Below are positions 3,854 to 20,003 of a stretch of 33,710 nt of DNA, one piece after another. Each line of letters opens with the position of its first letter. Positions within the stretch are counted from its first letter, which is position 1. A program made the translations under genes and the position numbers. The notes under the pieces are model-generated. The model had not been told where the DNA came from. It saw nothing but the letters and a program-made list of their open reading frames with translations, and did not search any database. The DNA is from Candidatus Hydrogenedentota bacterium (GTDB lineage: Bacteria > Hydrogenedentota > Hydrogenedentia > Hydrogenedentales > JAJRTN01), in contig JAJRTN010000127.1 in the NCBI GenBank assembly GCA_024278275.1, positions 1-33,710 of the forward strand. Reading direction: 5' to 3'.

Positions 3854-5356
3854 TCAGGCCGTCGGGTCTCCGGCCTTCCAGGCCGCCAGGCGGCGTTTTC
3901 GAAAGGCCGCGATGGGGGCGCTGGCGCCGGGGTCGCCGGCCTTTTTCAGAAGTTGGGCGAGCCGGGCTTCCAACCTGTGTCTTGTTGCCGCATGGGCGGG
4001 GTCGTTCACCAGGTTGTTGCACTGATCGGGGTCTTCCCTGTTGTCGAAGAGCAGCCAGGGCCCCTCATCGAGCAGGCGCGCGTAGGTGTAGCGCTTCGTG
4101 CGCACGCCGCGCCATTCCCGGATGCCGTTGGCCAGCCACGGGTTCCCGCCATGCACGAGCTTCATGAGCAGGACCGCGTCCTGTTGGTGGTGAGCCTCGC
4201 CGCGGGCGGCCGGGGAAAGGTCCAGGCCGTCGAGGTCCAGGGGCGCATCAAGCCCCGCGAGTCCCAACAGGGTGGGCATGATGTCAATGGGTGAAAGAAG
4301 GGCGTCGGACACGGTTTTCGGGGGGATTTCCCGCGGGTAGCGAATGAGGAAGGGTATGGAAATGGCCTCTTCATAGGGCATTTGCTTCGACGCCATGCGA
4401 TGGGAACCCAGCATATCGCCGTGGTCGGAGGCAAAAACGAGGATGGTATCCTGCCCCAGGCCCGTATCCTCGAGGGTTTGCATCAGTCTTCCCATGCAGT
4501 CATCCAGGGCCTGCGTGGCGGCATAATAGCCCTGGATCCACTCCCGCAGGGCCGCGTCATCATCCATGCGGGCACGAAAGCGCTTTCGTAAAACCGCCTC
4601 CTGCCCGGAGAGTGTATGGAGGTCGGTTTTCAGCAGTGCATCGACCATCGACCGCTCCCCCACGTTCTTGCGCAACGCAATCTTTTCGGCGGGGAAACGT
4701 TCCATGTATTTCGGCGGTGCAATGTAGGGGTCGTGAGGAGGCCCCCACGACAAAAAGAGACAGAAGGGCTGTTCCCGGTGCCGGCGTATGTAGTCGATGG
4801 CCAGGCGGGTCTGGGCGAAGGGCTCAAAGCCGGGCAGGGGAATATGCTCCCCTGTGTCGCCACAGTAGAAGCTGTCGAAATAGGCGTGGCTGCAATTGCG
4901 CACGGCCCAGTAATCGAAACCCAGGCGGCGATTCTTCGGCACAAAGGGAGCCCGGTTCCAATCGAGATGCCATTTGCCAATGTAGCCCGTGGCGTAGCCC
5001 TGGGCCTTGCAGACGGTGGCGATGCCGGGCAGGTCGTGACGGATCACCGTATCGTTCGCCACGGTACCGTTGGCCATGGGATAGCGACCGGTAAGAAGCA
5101 TGGCACGAAAGGGTGAACACACGGGCCAGGTGCTGAGGGCGTTGGTAAAGCGCGCCCCCTGCTCCGCGAGCCGGTCGAAGTTGGGCGTGGCCACCTGACG
5201 GTTGCCATAACAGCCCAGCACCTGCGAGCGCATCTGGTCGGCGAAAACAAAGATGATGTTGGGCTTGCGGCCGGTTGGCATGGCGAACGACGGCGCCGCC
5301 AAGGCCAACGAGGCGCCGACGACCCCCGCATGACGGAGAAAGCAACGGCGATCCAT
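3854..5356 (-). CDS. Tat-exported sulfatase (S1 family)
   Basis: Predicted to hydrolyse sulfate esters outside the cytoplasm; the substrate is unknown but a sulfated glycan is plausible. The 500-residue protein opens with MDRRCFLRHA and a hydrophobic stretch ending SFA, a Tat-type signal. The mature region starts KPNIIFVFADQ (metal Asp40; DQ instead of DD is a common variant). Cys80 in CSPFRAMLLTGR is the CxPxR formylglycine precursor site. GKWH (Lys128, His130) and SDHGD (Asp311, His312) are the other metal/sulfate ligands, with Lys324 following. Activity needs a formylglycine-generating or anaerobic maturase enzyme, which is not in this window. ATG 5356 is preceded by AAGGGGTG. It converges with the gene at 2765-3739. 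Confidence 0.93.
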   Translation of the reverse strand: MDRRCFLRHAGVVGASLALAAPSFAMPTGRKPNIIFVFADQMRSQVLGCYGNRQVATPNFDRLAEQGARFTNALSTWPVCSPFRAMLLTGRYPMANGTVANDTVIRHDLPGIATVCKAQGYATGYIGKWHLDWNRAPFVPKNRRLGFDYWAVRNCSHAYFDSFYCGDTGEHIPLPGFEPFAQTRLAIDYIRRHREQPFCLFLSWGPPHDPYIAPPKYMERFPAEKIALRKNVGERSMVDALLKTDLHTLSGQEAVLRKRFRARMDDDAALREWIQGYYAATQALDDCMGRLMQTLEDTGLGQDTILVFASDHGDMLGSHRMASKQMPYEEAISIPFLIRYPREIPPKTVSDALLSPIDIMPTLLGLAGLDAPLDLDGLDLSPAARGEAHHQQDAVLLMKLVHGGNPWLANGIREWRGVRTKRYTYARLLDEGPWLLFDNREDPDQCNNLVNDPAHAATRHRLEARLAQLLKKAGDPGASAPIAAFRKRRLAAWKAGDPTA

Positions 5357-5871: not shown

Positions 5872-6594
5872 TTACATGCCGCGCCGACGCCGCTCTTTCG
5901 GTCCGGGAACCACCCAGGTGTCATCGGTTTTAAGGTATTTGAGCTGCACGCTGGAGTTGTTTCCGATCACCTTGACCAATTGAAGCTTGTCGTGGTGAAA
6001 GAGATCGCCCTCCGCGACAAAGTAATTCTCCTTTACCTTCAGCTCTTTATCGTAGACCTCCAGGTTGGCGTGTAAAACGCCATCCGTCTCGATGAAGCCG
6101 TTGCAGGTGACTTTGGGCCGGTTAAGGACATCCAGGGCGCGCTGCTTCCGTTTGTCATAGCGGTTGCTGCCCGGCTCCATAACCTCGTAGACCAGGATGG
6201 CGCCATACACGATGCCCTGGCGGTCGTCCGCGCTGGCCTTTCGAATCAGGTCCGTAACATCCGAGCGAAGGCGGCCTATGGCTTCGGGGCCATTCACACT
6301 GTTGCGGTGGGTGCTGAGCAAGGGGCGCAGGTTGTTCACCGCCGCCGCACGATCCGCGTCCGTCAGGCCACCTCCGCCATTGTAAGGTTTCCAAAGGACA
6401 TTGATGGCATTCTTCAACTCACCATAAATCTGTGTCGCGCTTGGGGGGGGCGGCGCGACGGGTTTCACCGGTTCTTCCTCTTTTTCCTTGCAGCCCGCCA
6501 GCACGAGCAGCCCAAGGAGCATCACGGTTGAAAAATACAGTGTACGGCGCATGGCATCCATCCCCTGAAATGTGTTTCCCACGTTTAAAACCAT
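5872..6594 (-). CDS. Putative lipoprotein, unknown function
   Basis: The 240-residue product has a signal peptide ending in the lipobox LVLAGC (Cys35), then an acidic stretch KEKEEEP and a Pro-rich linker, so it is probably anchored to a membrane by lipid. The rest (~50-240) begins helical, with YGELKNAINVLW, and ends with a beta-rich part, LVKVIGNNSSVQLKYL, that recalls small periplasmic assembly domains. No family is assigned. ATG 6594 is favoured because GGGAGGTGAT sits just upstream. ATG 6552 (MRRTLYF) would give a more normal signal length and is the alternative. The gene follows the large exported protein on the same strand, 137 bases away. Confidence 0.7.
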   Translation of the reverse strand: MVLNVGNTFQGMDAMRRTLYFSTVMLLGLLVLAGCKEKEEEPVKPVAPPPPSATQIYGELKNAINVLWKPYNGGGGLTDADRAAAVNNLRPLLSTHRNSVNGPEAIGRLRSDVTDLIRKASADDRQGIVYGAILVYEVMEPGSNRYDKRKQRALDVLNRPKVTCNGFIETDGVLHANLEVYDKELKVKENYFVAEGDLFHHDKLQLVKVIGNNSSVQLKYLKTDDTWVVPGPKERRRRGM

Positions 6595-6731
6595 AGTATC
6601 ACCTCCCTCCGTGAAACCGCAAACCTTTCGAGTATCCCTTCACGGGAAATACCGAAGAGTCTGCCCGGCTTTGTGCATGGACAGCGTGTTCCTGAAAAGG
6701 AATCGTTTGCCGCCCCATTTCCCGCAGACCA

Positions 6732-10021: not shown

Positions 10022-10073
10022 GGAAGAAAGCAAAGGGCCCTCCCCGGAATACATCCGCATTCGGGGGAGGGCC
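10022..10073 (-). terminator. Strong intrinsic terminator
   Basis: GGCCCTCCCC (10036-10045) pairs with GGGGAGGGCC (10064-10073), and GAAT/ATTC extends the stem inward. On the minus strand the stem is followed by CTTTGCTTTCTT. It would end transcription of the small ORF at 10138-10254 before the large gene starting at 9959. Confidence 0.65.
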
Positions 10074-10137
10074 GCTTCTCGTGGACAACCAGGACGCTAA
10101 CCGTCAAGGTCATCATGTCCCTGAAAAGGTCACCTCG

Positions 10138-10254
10138 TCATAGTCGGCGACTGTCCTTTCCCGAACCTGCCTCACTCGTGGGCAGGTCCGCCTGATGGTC
10201 GCGCGACCGCGCGAGGCGCCTCATACTAGCGCCCGGTTTTCCCGAATCATCCAT
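10138..10254 (-). CDS. 38-residue ORF with exceptionally strong ribosome binding site
   Basis: ATG at 10254, TGA at 10138-10140. The peptide starts MDDSGKPGASMRRLARSRD and is hydrophilic and Arg-rich, with no membrane segment. The minus strand just upstream (10273-10262) reads AGAAAGGAGGTG, which pairs with essentially the whole 16S rRNA 3' tail at ideal distance (6 bases after GGTGGT). A strong terminator closes the unit about 65 bases after the stop. The signals suggest a separately transcribed small gene. The amino-acid composition alone is unconvincing, so the alternative is a structured small RNA or a leader carrying a chance ORF. Confidence 0.35.
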   Translation of the reverse strand: MDDSGKPGASMRRLARSRDHQADLPTSEAGSGKDSRRL

Positions 10255-10260
10255 CGACAG

Positions 10261-10273
10261 ACCACCTCCTTTC
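10261..10273 (-). promoter_or_regulatory. Near-perfect Shine-Dalgarno site
   Basis: On the minus strand this is GAAAGGAGGTGGT, complementary to the 16S rRNA 3' end over at least eleven bases. It is the strongest such site in the window and precedes the 38-codon ORF at 10254. Confidence 0.6.
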
Positions 10274-10449
10274 TGCCTCGCACCGATATATCCCGCGGCC
10301 CAACATCGAATCGCTTCGCCATCGGTGGGGACTGGCGCCGGTGAGTACGCCTCATCGGCTGAAAAAGCTTACCACAAAGATAACGTTTCGTCCACCCCTG
10401 CGAAACAGGCGGGCGCGGATTTTCGACCCCAACCCCCGTCCGACCTGGT

Positions 10450-10555: not shown

Positions 10556-11299
10556 ATGTTTCAGCGAGCGTTTGGATGGATGGCGGGCGCGTTAATCATC
10601 ATCGTGGTGGCGGGCTGCACGCCCAAGCCGGTCGTGACCGAGGTAAAACAGGCCAACCCCGATTCGGGGGTTCGGGTGGTGAAAACGGAAGGCCTGCCTC
10701 GGACGCCTCCCCAGCAGGCCGCCCCCGACAAGAAGGCCGCCCAATATGAGCTTGACGGGATGACGGTCAAGCCCAAGGTGGAGGAGCGCCCGGCCCGCTC
10801 CATCCCCGAGCTTTTCAAGGCGCTGAAGGCCGAGACCTGGGAAGAACGGTTGGCGGCGGTGGAAGACCTGGGTCGCAGCGGCAACACCAGCGACGAGGTT
10901 ATCGACGCCCTGGTCAACATGTACAACGACCGGTATGGGCAGATCTATTTCGCGGCCTCCGACGCGCTACGGAAGATCGGTCCCAAAGCAGTGCCGAAGA
11001 TCATTGAAGGGCTGAAGTTTGAGGGAGAGAACGCGCGTTTCGCCGCGGCATATACGCTCAAAGGCATCAATCCGCCGCCGGTCGCGGCATTACAACCGTT
11101 GATTGACGCGCTGGACGACGAGGGAGTGTATGTGCGCATGTACGCGGTGCTGGCCATCGCCCACCTGGGCGCCGCCGCCGAACCGGCTCTTCCGGCCCTT
11201 GAGGCCGTCGCCGCCAACGAGGAAGAGAACCCCGAGACCCGGCAGCACGCACGCCATGCTGTGAAGAGCATCCGGAAACGCCTGGCCGCGCAACAATAG
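10556..11299 (+). CDS. HEAT-repeat lipoprotein
   Basis: The 247-residue product has a lipoprotein signal with lipobox VVAGC (Cys21), then a Pro/Lys-rich linker to about residue 80. Next come four or so HEAT-type helical repeats (EERLAAVEDLGRSG, FAASDALRKIGPKAVP, ARFAAAYTLKGI, VRMYAVLAIAHLG). Such repeats bind proteins, so this is probably a membrane-tethered scaffold on the periplasmic side or cell surface. ATG 10556 follows GGAGGT by five bases. The gene stands alone, divergent from the small ORF at 10254 and convergent with the membrane protein ending at 11486. Confidence 0.85.
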   Translation: MFQRAFGWMAGALIIIVVAGCTPKPVVTEVKQANPDSGVRVVKTEGLPRTPPQQAAPDKKAAQYELDGMTVKPKVEERPARSIPELFKALKAETWEERLAAVEDLGRSGNTSDEVIDALVNMYNDRYGQIYFAASDALRKIGPKAVPKIIEGLKFEGENARFAAAYTLKGINPPPVAALQPLIDALDDEGVYVRMYAVLAIAHLGAAAEPALPALEAVAANEEENPETRQHARHAVKSIRKRLAAQQ

Positions 11300-12833: not shown

Positions 12834-14315
12834 TCAATTCCGGTCGAAATGCGTGCCGGGGATGAGCTTGGCTTCGTATTCGCCCCGCAGAATCCGCTCG
12901 TGCTCCGCCAGGATGTCCGCGTACCGGGGGTCGCCCCAAAGGTTCCTGGTTTCCCACGGGTCCTTTTTCATGTCGAAGAGCAGGCGAACGGGGATGTCCT
13001 GGTAGTCGGCGCCGTGACCGGGGACGAATTGCGTCGCCGTTCCATCGGCCAGGAGGAAAGGCTTGTCAGGCTTCTTGGAAAAGCGGTAGAACTTGACGAA
13101 CTTGTAGCGGGCGGTGCGGACCATCCGGCCCGTGTGCTGCATTTCGGCGTAGACATGTTCGCGCCAGGGTGTCGGTGTGTCACCAGACACCAGGGGCCGG
13201 AGGCTCAGGCCGCGGCAGTGCGGGGGTTGGGGCACACTGGCGTAGTCGCATACCGTGGCCATCACGTCCACCCCGCTGACCAGGTGATCCGTGTCCAGGA
13301 CATCCTCCGCCATCAGGCCCGGACAGGAGATGATGAAAGGCACCTTCACCGACTCGTCGTAGGGGTGCCACTTCGACACGCGGGAGTGTCTGCCGAGGCC
13401 CTCGCCGTGATCGGAGGTGAAGATGATGATCGTAGGGTCATCGCGTGATTCCACGGCGTTCAGCATACGGCCCACGTCGCCGTCGATCTTTTCAATCATA
13501 CGATAGTAATCGTAGGCATAGTTGCGCCACTGCATGGCGTTGAACTTCGTATAGCGCCCGCCTTTGGGCTCCCGGAAGTTGTAGACGTTGTTCGGCGGCA
13601 CCGGCGGCAACGCATCGCCCAGGTTGAAGGTGTCGGTGGGGGCGGTGGTCACTTTGTCCTTTCCCCAGTCGGGCCAGAAGCAGATGTCGTGGGGGTTCAT
13701 CAGCCCCGCCACGATAAGGAAGGGGTTGGGCTCCCGGTAGTTGCGGACAAAGGCTTCGACCGCGCTTGACACCTCGTAGTCCGCCGCGTCCCCCGTATCC
13801 CGCGCACCCACGGGCATGGTGTCGAAGCCGGGAATCTTACGGGGTCCCGACACCTCGGGATAATTCCATTGGCCCCCGGCGTGCCACTTTCCGCAGTACA
13901 CGCGGGTATAGTCGCCGTGTTCTTCGAGCCATTGGCCCATGTTCGGCACATTCTGGTCGATGCCGATATTGTTATACGTAATGCCCGTTTCAATGCTCAT
14001 TCGGCCCGTAAAAATGGCCGACCGCGCCGGGCAACACACGGGGTTGGCGCTGTGGGATTCCGTGAAGGTCACCCCCCGTTTCACCAAGCGATCCAAGTTG
14101 GGCGTGCGTAGCCAATGGCAACCCCACGCGGGCTCCTTGTAGTGGGACTTCAAGGCGGCGATAGTGTCCATGTTCTGCTGGTCGGTCACGATGATGAGGA
14201 TATTGGGCCGCTTCGTATCGGCCCGCGCCACGGAGGCCGCAGTGGCACCCAAGGCGGCCGCGCTGGTTTTCATGAAACTTCTCCGGTTCAGGGTAACGCC
14301 CTGTCTTTCGGTCAT
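12834..14315 (-). CDS. Tat-exported sulfatase (S1 family), second copy
   Basis: Predicted extracytoplasmic sulfate ester hydrolase of 493 residues. The N-terminus has a classic twin-arginine motif, NRRSFMK, followed by an Ala-rich core ending ARA. The core starts RPNILIIVTDQQ (metal Asp45), then the formylglycine site Cys94 in VCCPARSAIFTGR (CxPxR with Cys in the x place), CGKWHAGG, and TSDHGEGLGRHS. Sequence differs clearly from the sulfatase at 3854, so the two probably act on different linkages. Its ATG lies three bases after the TGA of the gene at 14319-15140, and the AAGGAGGG site sits inside that gene's 3' end, so the two are translationally linked. Confidence 0.94.
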   Translation of the reverse strand: MTERQGVTLNRRSFMKTSAAALGATAASVARADTKRPNILIIVTDQQNMDTIAALKSHYKEPAWGCHWLRTPNLDRLVKRGVTFTESHSANPVCCPARSAIFTGRMSIETGITYNNIGIDQNVPNMGQWLEEHGDYTRVYCGKWHAGGQWNYPEVSGPRKIPGFDTMPVGARDTGDAADYEVSSAVEAFVRNYREPNPFLIVAGLMNPHDICFWPDWGKDKVTTAPTDTFNLGDALPPVPPNNVYNFREPKGGRYTKFNAMQWRNYAYDYYRMIEKIDGDVGRMLNAVESRDDPTIIIFTSDHGEGLGRHSRVSKWHPYDESVKVPFIISCPGLMAEDVLDTDHLVSGVDVMATVCDYASVPQPPHCRGLSLRPLVSGDTPTPWREHVYAEMQHTGRMVRTARYKFVKFYRFSKKPDKPFLLADGTATQFVPGHGADYQDIPVRLLFDMKKDPWETRNLWGDPRYADILAEHERILRGEYEAKLIPGTHFDRN

Positions 14316-16102: not shown

Positions 16103-17098
16103 TCAACGTTCCAGGCAGGGCACGCCCGATTCCGCCAAATGCTGGTAAAAGCGTTCCAGCAGCGCGGGTTCGGGCGGGGTCATGACGACGCCGGCCCCGG
16201 CCTGTCCCAACCGCGCGCGCTTGGCATCGCCCAGGGGATGGTACGGCAGCAGCGCCACCCCGAGACAGTGGTCCAATTCCCGGTAGAGACGCGCCACGCC
16301 GTCCATGTGCGGAAGCGAATCGTTGACCCCGCCCACCACCACGCACCGCAGCACCGTGGCCGCCCCCAGCCCATCCACCAGGCGCAGATTCTCCCAGATC
16401 ACTTCCGGCCGCCGGCCGGTCCACTGCTCGTGCGCCTCGGGGTCCGTGTGCTTGATATCCCACAGAAACAGGTCAACCTTCGGCGCCACGGCGCGCACGG
16501 TGCCGGGCTCGGCCAGCCCACAGGTCTCCACGCACGTATGCACCCCCGCGGCCCGTGCCGCGTCGAGCAGGGCCATTGCAAACCCGGGCTGGGCCAGGGG
16601 TTCGCCCCCGGACAGCGTCAGTCCGCCCCCGCTCTCATCGTAGAAGACCCGGTCCTTCTCCACCTCCGCCATCACCGCCTCCACCGACATGAGGGAGCCC
16701 ACGCGCTCAATGGCCCCGCCCGGGCAAACCGGGGCACAGCGCAAACAGTCGGCGCAATGGCCGCGGCCCGCCAGCACGGAAAGCACCTCCCGCGCGTCGC
16801 CCCGGGGACACACGGCGGTGCAGCGCCGGCAGTCGATGCACAACCCGGGGCTGAAGAACAACTCGGGTTCCAGCCGCCGCGATTCGGGGTTGTGGCACCA
16901 GGCGCACCGCAACGGGCAGCCTTTCAGGAAAACCGTGGTGCGAATGCCGGGACCGTCGTGGGTGCAGCTCCGCTGCACGTCAAAGACCCGCCCCCGCACC
17001 CCTTCCGCGTCCAGTTCGACATCGGTTTGGTTCTCTTTCCCTGGGAAAGGCGCTTTCCCCTGGAAGGAAGCCGGGGGTTCAGTCCTCTTCTCATACAT
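16103..17098 (-). CDS. Glycyl-radical enzyme activating enzyme (radical SAM)
   Basis: The 331-residue product uses S-adenosylmethionine and a 4Fe-4S cluster to abstract hydrogen from the glycine of its partner GRE. The radical-SAM motif CPLRCAWC is at Cys61, 65 and 68, followed by HNPESR. Two ferredoxin-type clusters follow (Cys87/90/93/97 and Cys115/118/121/125), as in the activases of CutC, HPD and glycerol dehydratase but not PFL itself. [12 protein letters not shown] is the SAM-binding GGE motif. There is no signal peptide, so it acts in the cytoplasm. Its ATG overlaps the end of the GRE gene by eight bases, implying coupled translation. About 36 residues precede the usual family start. 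Confidence 0.95.
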
Positions 17099-20003
17099 AC
17101 TGCTGGGTACGGGCGATCACCATGTCCTGCCATTCTTTGTTCAAGGTGGCGAAACGGGCCGACCATCCCGCGATGCGGACGGAGAGGTTCGGGTACTTTT
17201 CGGGGTGCCGCTGCGCGTCGAGGAGCAGGGCCGAATCCACCACGTCGATGTGCATGAACATGCCGCCCAGTTTCACGAAACCGCGCATGAGACCCGCCAT
17301 GGCCTCCACGCCGCTCTCGCCTTTCACCGTCTCCGGGTGGATCTTCAGTTCCACCGTGGCGCCGTTGGGCGTGCGGGTGAAGTCCATCTTGCAATAGGAC
17401 TTGATCACGGCCGTGGGACCACGGCGATCCGTGCCCGGTGAGGGCGAAAAGTTGGTGGCCAGGATCTCATCCCCATGATGGCCGTCGGGACTGGCCGTCC
17501 GGCCGCCGTCGGGTCCGCGCCAGGCGATCTCGCGGCCGAAAGTGCTGATGCCGGCCGGGCGAAGTACCCCCGCGCGCTCGGGACACCGGGCCACCAGGTC
17601 CGTGTAGTCATTGAAGACCCGCGTCATCATGGCGTCGGCCTGCTCGCTGTCATTGCCATAGAACTCAAAGCGATTCAACACCAGGCGACGCAGGGCTTCC
17701 TGCCCCTCCCAGTCGTCCCGCAGGATCGACACAAAATCCGCCAACGACAAGCACCGCTCGTCGTAGACCAGCTCCTTGAGCACCAGCAGGCTGTTGGCCA
17801 CGTTGGCCAGGCCGCCCGCGTGGGGCGCCAGCACACTGTAACGCGCTCCCCGGTTGTAGTAGCTTCTGCCCCGATCGATGCAATCCTCGACAAACATGCT
17901 CACCAACGGCGCCGGGTGATCCGACCGCATCCAGCCGTCGGCCATACGGTGGTGTCCCTCGATATGCCGGGCCAGGCGCTCGGTGTAGGCACGATAGAGA
18001 TCGTCGAAGGTGGCGAAGTCGGGCGGGGCCGCGTTGGGCCGGTCCAGGTGAAGCGCGCCCTGGAGCAGGCCCAGGGCGTCGAAAGGCACGTAACTGAAGG
18101 TGGTCTCGCCGGGAATGAGCACTTCCCAGCAGCCGTCGTTGGTAAAACGCCGCGCATCGCGCAAACGGTAACCGAACTTCACCAGCCCGTCGATGACCAC
18201 TTCCTCGTTATACAGGGCCACGATGCCGCCGCCATGGCGCTGCACGCGGGCCATCTTCCGCAACAGGGCCGCGGGGGAATTCCGGTTGAGGCGCACGGCA
18301 ATGGGAAAATCACTGATGTGCAGTTCCTCGACAATGTCGAGGACCAGGCAGGTGACCTCGTTGGCCACCTCGCGGCCCTTTTCGTCCACCCCCGCCAGGA
18401 TGATGTTCTGGTAGAACTGGGCATCGCCGCTGCCCCCGAAGCCGTGGGCGCCGGTCCATTCACAGCCCTTTATCCAGAAATGGGCCAGCACTTCGCGGGC
18501 TTCCGCCAGGGTGGTGCGGCCCGCCTCGAGGTCCGCCGCCAGGTATCCCCCCAGCATCTCATCGATGCGGCCGATGCCGGACCAGGTGCCCATGAGCCGC
18601 TGGAAGGCGTACATGAACCAGAGCGACTGCACGGCTTCCTCGAAAGTGCGGGGAGGATTCTCCGGGACCTGTTCCAGGTTGGCGCGGACCCGCCGGTACG
18701 TGGCCTGTTCCTCGCCCGTCGAAGCGGCAATACGCTCTTCCAAGAGGTCGAGGTGGCGCTGCCGCCACATCCGCTCGGCATCGAGACAGCCCAACATGGC
18801 CTCAAGCAGGTCTTTGCCCCTGTTGCGCGGCGGCACGGATCCATCCAGGGGCGCCCCATGCCGCAGGGGGGCGTCGTCGCCCGCGTTGGCCAGCTTCCAG
18901 AGGCCCAGGGTCCCTTCATCGGGCGCGAAAGACGCGACCGCTTCGATGTGATCGGGAATCCGCCTGCTGATGTGAACGGAATCCATGGCGCCGTGACAGC
19001 CGACGGGCCCCCAGGGAAAGCCGCCGAAATACAGTCCGCCCCGCCCCTCGCTCCCGGTCTCCTTCGCAACCACTTCGGCCTCACGTACCAGGTCGCCGTC
19101 CACAAAGAGCCGCACTTTGCCGACGGTCAGGGCCATGGCCAGGTGGTGCCACGCACCATCGGTAATCACCCGGTCCGAAACAACTTCCGACGGGGCATGG
19201 CCCGGCAGGTAGGCGCTGAAACAGCCGGAACCGGCGTAAGAGTAGATTTCCCAGTGGTGGCGGGAGTCCTTGCTCTTGTTGAGCACCAGCACATTGAAGC
19301 CCGCGGCACTGTCCAGGCGCGCCCAGCACTCCACGAACAACGGAGGACGGCACAGGCTTTCGGTGGAAGCCGTCTCCCGCCAATAAGCGCCGCCGGGGCT
19401 GGTGAGGAAGGCGTCTCCCTGCCGGCCCTCGCAGCGCGTCTCTTCCGGCTTCGGGGCCGGTGCCGCTTCCACCAGCGGTTCATCTTCAAAGCCCTCGGCC
19501 AGGCGCTTTTCAATACGCTCCCGAAGCCCACGGTAACCCGTATGGAGCACCCGGTCGAAACCCAGCGTGGTGTGGCTCGTACTCGCCACGCCCAAGAAGG
19601 GCGTGACATGGCGGGCGGCTTCGTAAAGGGTGGCCGAGCCGACCACGCGCTCGCCGGGCAGAATGCGAAGGGGGGCCACCCGGGCCGCGTGCTTCGCCGC
19701 CAAAACATAGGCCTCGTTCTTGGTCAGTCCCTCGAATGCGCCATCGGGCAGGGGGGGCAGATCTCGTGCCAGACTTCGGCCATGCGCTCCGCCCATCGCC
19801 CGCTCCGCCAACGCGTGGGTCAGATCGCCAAGCCGCCGGGGTGTCTCGGGAGTCCATGTGCTTTGCCAATGCCGGGGAACCGGCTTCTCCACGGGGGTGG
19901 AGGCGCGAACCGTGCCACTGGCCAGGGCACCGGCCGCGAGGGTGGCCGTTGAAAAGGATTCCACGAATTCACGACGGCTCAGGCCGGTACGGTGTTTCTT
20001 CAT
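17091..20003 (-). CDS. Glycyl radical enzyme with Tat signal and inserted LamG-like domain
   Basis: 970 residues. Residues 9-34 form a twin-arginine signal (SRREFV, hydrophobic core, VRA). Residues ~55-180 match the GRE N-terminal region ([28 protein letters not shown]). Residues ~197-375 are a LamG/concanavalin-like insertion ([40 protein letters not shown]). The PFL-type barrel resumes at ~398. Catalytic Cys625 and Glu627 are in NDGCWEV; the glycyl radical Gly946 is in RIAGWSARF near the C-terminus. GCxE and a single cysteine exclude pyruvate formate-lyase (two adjacent Cys) and point to an eliminase/lyase type. The substrate is unknown. AAGGGGA precedes ATG 20003. The activase follows with an 8-base overlap, and an AraC gene is divergent. 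Confidence 0.92.

Follow-up and report, generated by a model that had tools for sequence, protein, structure and literature searches.

A conserved, compact unit recurs in one order of Hydrogenedentota, in which an extended Shine-Dalgarno (SD) segment is followed by a start codon, a short reading frame and an intrinsic terminator. Comparison between genomes establishes, at the level of sequence, the conservation of this unit, its base pairing, and a reading frame that is kept while the encoded peptide is not. With moderate confidence, we read the unit as a structured mini-mRNA whose role would be the loading and passage of ribosomes rather than the synthesis of a particular peptide.

The unit occupies the minus strand of the window, i.e., the whole analysed stretch of 33,710 nucleotides, from about 10340 to 10022 and consists of an SD-like segment, ATG, a 38-codon ORF, TGA and a terminator (Table 1). 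A sequence-only reading had noticed this compact SD/ORF/terminator arrangement, and the observation is confirmed: start codon, ORF, the inner pairing ACCTGCC/GGCAGGT and a strong terminator with a T-rich tail are found where it had placed them. The SD segment AGAAAGGAGGTG is present on the minus strand as well, at 10274-10263 and thus shifted by one base from the 10273-10262 given there. The predicted folding energy of the 339-nt stretch 10360-10022 has a z-score of -4.2, which was equalled by 0/100 shuffles. A simple terminator scan with a loop limit of 8 did not list the terminator; its stem is nonetheless part of the predicted fold. No Rfam family matches the window at gathering score, in agreement with the earlier statement that no matching family was known.

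Table 1. Features of the unit and their positions in the window.
Feature	Position	Strand	Remarks
Conserved core	10177..10335	minus	10335-10217 fits model R1, 10328-10177 fits model R3
5' domain	10281..10327	minus	closing strands CACCGATG (10327-10320) with TATCGGTG (10288-10281)
Extended Shine-Dalgarno AGAAAGGAGGTGGTC	10260..10274	minus	15 pairs to 16S 3' end, one G-U
Mini-ORF, ATG to TGA, 38 codons	10138..10254	minus	ATG 10254-10252; stop position conserved in relatives
Hairpin P5 in ORF, TTCGG/CCGGG	10232..10246	minus	CCGGGTAAACCCGG in most relatives; in both consensus structures
P6a coding strand GGGCGCTAG	10226..10234	minus	partner 10100-10092
P6a 3' UTR strand TTAGCGTCC	10092..10100	minus	partner 10234-10226
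P6b coding strand CGCCTCG	10212..10218	minus	partner CGAGGTG 10137-10131
P6b 3' strand, immediately past TGA	10131..10137	minus	partner 10218-10212
P4 candidate strand GGCGGACC	10185..10192	minus	possible 8 pairs with post-SD GGTCTGTC 10263-10256; overlaps P7
P7 hairpin ACCTGCC/GGCAGGT	10165..10187	minus	10187-10181 with 10171-10165; GGAUC/GAUCC equivalent in relatives; weak covariation
Intrinsic terminator stem	10036..10073	minus	GGCCCTCCCC (10073-10064) with GGGGAGGGCC (10045-10036), then CTTTGCTTTCTT; from sequence and predicted fold; T-rich tail to about 10022

Among the other genes of the window, the divergent neighbour (10556-11299, plus) encodes a HEAT-repeat protein with a lipoprotein-like start. 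An unusual combination is seen at 17094-20003 (minus), where a glycyl-radical enzyme (PFL-like and Gly_radical) carries Laminin_G_3 inserted at residues 224-348. Two sulfatases (Pfam PF00884 with SGSH_C) are encoded at 3857-5356 and 12837-14315 (minus).

The SD-like segment is the most conserved part of the RNA, and GAAAGGAGGTG and the AUG are each invariant in 17/17 aligned loci. In a duplex with AGAAAGGAGGTGGTC, each of the 15 bases of GATCACCTCCTTTCT would be paired, one of them as G-U (the 16S tail is that of relatives; the genome's own sequence contains no 16S end). A match to TGGATCACCTCCTT was found in 15 of 68 genomes, and 12 of these 15 are 16S ends by context. The 16S 3' ends of these 12 relatives uniformly read GGCTGGATCACCTCCTTTCTA (GGCTGGATCACCTCCTTTCT); one of the three remaining matches is the opposite strand of the element's own RNA. 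In 67,378 21-nt windows on both strands, the SD site gives the top predicted duplex with the 16S tail (-22.0 kcal/mol), and the 13-mer AGAAAGGAGGTGG occurs a single time in the 5.35 Mb of the genome. The distance from GGAGG to the ATG is 10 nt, which is rather long and counts against the mini-mRNA reading. A site near 6617 on the minus strand (GGAGGGAGGTGATACTATGG) reaches an almost equal duplex energy of -21.9 kcal/mol; it precedes a 240-aa ORF (5872-6594) without a Pfam match.

A plain DNA search found the element in 16 of 60 genomes, its own included, and what aligned was centred on the SD rather than on a protein. The covariance model R1 of the 118-nt core gave matches in 32 of the 68 Hydrogenedentota genomes, all of one order, and at 33 places altogether; the window element belongs to its training set and scores E 5.0e-23. 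The loci comprise group A with a long frame (38-43 codons) and group B with a short frame (27-34 codons). Model R3, which was built solely from the divergent short-ORF group, finds the window element outside its training set at E 4.8e-6 and again matches 32/68 genomes, so groups A and B are one family. R1 matched none of the 17 genomes of family f10 or the 4 of family f7; with R3, a single weak match (E 0.008) appears in f10. A contig scan with a pattern that demanded SD, ATG and RGTC returned 27 matches, most of them in Candidatus Hydrogenedentota, and the five phage-type loci from a pattern scan of viral contigs all lack the remaining features of the element. Two variants may be mentioned here. 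One copy (L053, genome G064) has a degenerate SD (GGGAAGGGGGTGATTCC) and a 26-codon frame that, read by eye, is still open. Two similar copies (L010 and L017) lie near contig ends in one bin (G046, contigs C581 and C318), reflecting either duplication or a mixed bin.

The predicted structure is likewise conserved. According to RNAalifold, the 5' domain contains pairs with two-sided changes both in the all-group core and in the short-ORF group. The unprompted consensus fold of 11 group A loci renders the coding region as one long hairpin, in which codons ~9-11 pair with the 3' UTR (P6a) and the next codons with the surroundings of the stop (P6b/c), enclosing an inner GGAUC/GAUCC hairpin. The P6a-equivalent helix (columns 107-114 with 228-235) shows 97.7% pairing, with two-sided changes in 2/8 pairs. 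In permutation tests on P6, a locus's own strands pair at -34.9 kcal/mol versus -27.4 kcal/mol for strands swapped between species in group A (18/20 loci, near-duplicates L011 and L017 left out), and at -34.5 versus -26.5 kcal/mol in group B (10/10 loci), with 0/5000 permutations in either group. Two downstream control regions showed no effect in the same test (3349/5000 and 3126/5000). The long P6 helix has 90.4% of its cells paired, and its covariation score is higher than in 500/500 shuffles and in every slid version. Pairs changed on both sides are no more numerous than in shuffles (135/500 reach the count).

The other hairpins give a more varied picture. P5 shows little covariation because it is mostly invariant. 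P4 would mask the SD, and in group B the AUG as well; it is predicted in group B and possible in group A. In the window, both of its strands (GGCGGACC/GGTCTGTC) depart from the common GGTCCATC/GATGGATC, and its covariation is weak (228/5000 in A, 29/5000 in A+B). The counterpart of P7 in relatives (columns 157-162 with 181-186) has 1 of 6 pairs compensated, in two sequences, and its own pairings are no better than swapped ones. The sequence-only reading had proposed to look in related genomes for conservation of the ORF and covariation of the hairpins: frame and structure are both conserved, and covariation is found in the coding/3' UTR helix P6 but hardly in the inner hairpin that it had pointed out (P7). 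As P4 overlaps P6 and P7, a switch between P4 and P6/P7 might be possible.

The reading frame was compared in 30 loci, namely 29 of the 33 R1 places and L066 from the contig scan; left out were G048, in which the contig end cuts the frame, G064 (L053) with its degenerate SD, and G023 and G065, for which no locus was given. The first in-frame stop falls at codon 38-43 in 20/20 group A loci and at codon 27-34 in 10/10 group B loci. In the other two frames, the first stop is scattered over codons 0-55 and 1-34, and stops occur within the same span in 27/30 and 29/30 loci. Given the tight spacing in frame and the scatter out of frame, indels occur in threes, and selection keeps the short frame open. 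These data bear on the alternative that the RNA is purely non-coding and sequesters the 30S subunit via the 16S tail, the open frame being a structural by-product. Such an RNA would be in line with the SD segment as the most conserved part, with a pairing potential beyond the needs of initiation and with an unconserved peptide, yet it would not account for an invariant AUG, a frame open to a tightly placed stop in 30/30 loci with indels in multiples of three, or the interchange of the three stop codons in the Pirellulales, Chloroflexota and CC2171 loci described below. Since start, openness and stop are conserved, the element seems to be more than a non-coding RNA, and we regard this alternative as rather unlikely.

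We assign a similarly low likelihood to the view that the unit encodes a small protein or peptide with a function of its own and that RNA structure merely tunes its translation. A synonymous bias in the ORF, which the sequence-only reading had named as a check, was not found: substitutions in L006/L008/L012, which belong to the less similar loci, are distributed as 37/38/38 over the three codon positions, with 6 synonymous versus 59 non-synonymous codons. As the frame is fixed while the codon positions vary about equally, the frame is kept with the peptide largely free. In the most similar set (L007/L011/L035), third positions change more often (6/13/17), a slight hint of peptide constraint. 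A strong ribosome-binding site and a conserved frame would suit a small protein, as would the N-terminal M.SPGKPGAS in most group A loci and the near-identical decapeptides of the Pirellulales form; against this, the N-terminal conservation coincides with an RNA hairpin, lengths vary from 27 to 43 aa within one phylum, non-synonymous changes dominate, and in one Pirellulales locus the peptide is altered while the RNA is kept. A search of NCBIfam with the 38-codon ORF and with an overlapping 44-aa frame gave no match. Moreover, the encoded peptide is not consistently Arg-rich. Together with the missing synonymous bias, this makes it doubtful that a protein is what the element is for. A conserved small protein was rejected as the main reading on the codon-position data. 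Of the two options offered originally, a small RNA that meets the ribosome through its SD-like segment and an Arg-rich small protein, the data favour a combination: the structured, conserved RNA fits the former, to which a conserved reading frame is added.

Next, we consider whether the element acts in cis, as a leader or attenuator, on the gene that lies downstream of it (9959-7419, minus). This gene does follow the terminator on the same strand in the window, and the 5' domain appears aptamer-like. Across 30 Hydrogenedentota, 17 Pirellulales and 9 Chloroflexota loci, however, the neighbours differ, with downstream genes that are unrelated and on either strand, including the opposite strand at several loci. 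The largest set of related downstream genes comprises 3-4 loci of close relatives, in Hydrogenedentota three loci of one genus, and a conserved same-strand downstream gene, as a riboswitch or attenuator leader needs, was not found across these loci. A leader of 9959-7419 was rejected for lack of a conserved downstream neighbour and is very improbable; with no downstream gene conserved, the element looks like an independent, stand-alone small RNA gene from its genomic context. A chance assembly of SD, ORF and terminator is practically negligible, as a lone 13-mer and a 38-codon ORF are each not improbable but conservation over 32 genomes and covariation refute it.

Promoter-like boxes are found upstream of many relatives. 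At many Hydrogenedentota loci, TTGCG-17-TATAGT ends ~71 nt upstream of AAAGG at a near-fixed place; Pirellulales have TTGACC-18-TAGTAT ~100 nt upstream of AAAGG, and Chloroflexota a TACACT-like box ~21 nt upstream. The mean promoter-score excess over shuffles is small in group A (0.57) and Chloroflexota (0.54) and larger in group B (1.08) and Pirellulales (1.86). At the conserved place, the window element itself has only poor boxes (CGTACT), and a sigma-70 scan of its strand gave no match. Most relatives have terminators downstream of the stop, and the RNA lengths predicted from these boxes are ~240-330 nt in Hydrogenedentota, 260-320 nt in Pirellulales and 140-210 nt in Chloroflexota.

The contig scan also gave one Pirellulales and one Anaerolineae locus. 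The Pirellulales form recurs in 18/146 genomes of its order, the other form in 9/151. Both combine an extended SD, an AUG and a tiny frame in sequences otherwise unlike the Hydrogenedentota element. The Pirellulales frame (MCS..QRWL[AV]) reaches its first stop at codon 10 in 16/16 loci, and the Chloroflexota frame (MLGHKGV.P) has 9 or 10 codons in 8/8. Either form has the end of its frame paired with the 3' UTR (0/5000 permutations in 16/18 Pirellulales matches, leaving out L086, a near-copy of L085, and L102, in which no SD was found; 1/5000 in 8/9 Chloroflexota loci, leaving out L107, a near-copy of L105). The Pirellulales stop is kept in 16/16 loci as TGA (10), TAG (3) or TAA (3), and stop-codon columns covary with their partners, one pair being G-C in 8 and A-U in 4 of the 16, another A-U in 10 and G-C in 3; the count of pairs with two-sided changes in this helix is not above shuffles (393/500 reach it). 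In L100, compensating shifts change the peptide from QRW to QVR while the surrounding RNA is kept. An RNA model of the Pirellulales form matches 28/392 Planctomycetota genomes. Several divergent Planctomycetota forms have, as read by eye, an apparent GTG start and a 13-codon frame. In 9/19 divergent loci (L131, L136, L138, L140, L141, L142, L146, L147, L149) no SD/ATG passed the filter, and one of the divergent loci (L156) is from Hydrogenedentota.

Further segments in these loci resemble anti-SD sequences. In seven divergent Planctomycetota loci (L132, L133, L134, L135, L137, L139, L148), AGTGGAATATG follows the SD, and in some of them a 3' CCACCTCC could pair with the SD or with an in-frame GAGGTGG, a possible internal anti-SD. 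In Chloroflexota (L103-L111), CACCTC/CATCTCC-like segments right past the stop look similar to the 16S anti-SD and might mask the SD.

Against the Planctomycetota and Chloroflexota loci, R1 gives a best E of 5.3e-7, but the similarity across phyla is mostly the extended SD and thus insufficient for homology. Moreover, the SD, ATG and RGTC letters common to the look-alikes were selected for by the scan pattern. Convergence of the phyla on a 16S antisense is possible.

The nearest Rfam family is CC2171 (RF01867), which the relatives match at 19.5-22.3 bits versus a cut-off of 75 (15 loci scanned); it came up weakly because it also carries GAAAGGAGGUGAUCC. Membership was rejected: the window element is unmatched in its own genome, two RF01867 matches elsewhere are at chance level, and the relatives stay below the cut-off. 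At an E-value threshold, eight Planctomycetota and Chloroflexota loci gave weak CC2171 and chance matches only. Like the window element, CC2171 stands alone and carries GAAAGGAGGTGATC(C), an antisense of the 16S end, and the element shares the layout of GAAAGGAGGUG[A/G]UC antisense to 16S with a helix from an early segment to one before the terminator, a likeness of layout, not homology. CC2171 differs in sequence and most of its structure, and Rfam types it as an sRNA without an ORF. Thus, by sequence comparison, the window RNA appears to resemble CC2171 in anatomy without being a member by score.

Six CC2171-like places were found on plasmids of Alphaproteobacteria, of which five (L180-L184, frame at position ~1201) were examined and one (H5) was not. 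In 5/5, a GTG 24 bases into the match opens a VSHC... frame of 24-26 codons, ending in TAA, TAG, TAA, TGA and TAA; as L182 and L183 are near-identical, these represent about four independent cases. L180 and L181 exceed the Rfam cut-off with 82.8 and 84.3 bits. The early codons CATTGYC can pair with GRCAATG just before the terminator, a helix already in the Rfam consensus. In L180, a 16S rRNA gene starts ~900 bases downstream of CC2171. In the open-access literature (PMC), we found no description of the element's RNA or of an ORF in CC2171.

Other known systems share single traits with the element. SgrS and RNAIII are coding or dual-function sRNAs. Pos19 of Rhodobacter, also of this kind, is reported to act on mRNAs together with Hfq and to have an SD that translation does not require (PMC5036791). 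The element resembles such sRNAs as a small independent transcript with a terminator and a short translated frame (all predicted here), whereas its hallmark, unlike that of Pos19, is the conserved extended SD. Staphylococcus aureus mRNAs pair with the 16S tail beyond the core GGAGG, a general mRNA property (PMC13009471); here, in contrast, a single structured RNA gene in other phyla is concerned. With tmRNA, the element shares a structured RNA with a short internal frame, but it has a conventional SD and start codon, and a tmRNA was rejected because ARAGORN finds none in the window, no tRNA-like part was found, and no Rfam family matches at gathering score.

How might a structured mini-mRNA act? 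That the unit is transcribed and translated, that it acts as a switch and that it affects other genes are inferences. The transcript would comprise a folded 5' domain, an extended SD for essentially the whole free 16S 3' tail, an AUG and the 38-codon frame, which would form the 5' strand of a long hairpin with the stop in or beside the 3' strand, followed by the intrinsic terminator. The extended SD would capture a 30S subunit, the frame would be translated, and passage of the ribosome would open the helix between coding region and 3' UTR, so that the RNA would alternate between a form without and a form with a ribosome. What the gene delivers might then be ribosome engagement instead of a peptide, with the RNA serving as a sponge or sensor for initiating ribosomes or its freed 3' strand becoming available to another partner.

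More tentatively, and with a fairly low probability, the RNAs of Hydrogenedentota, Planctomycetota, Chloroflexota and Alphaproteobacteria (CC2171) might be one kind, sensing or sponging available ribosomes via translation and not via a peptide. In such RNAs, a near-perfect 16S antisense would catch initiating ribosomes on a tiny frame that folds onto the 3' UTR. If so, the single segment common to otherwise unlike small RNAs would be explained, and the 'non-coding' Rfam sRNA family CC2171 would be a ribosome-driven mini-mRNA with a mechanism testable in culturable laboratory species. Bacteria would then keep a dedicated RNA to hold or count initiating ribosomes, and a reading frame could be conserved for the passage of the ribosome and not for its peptide.
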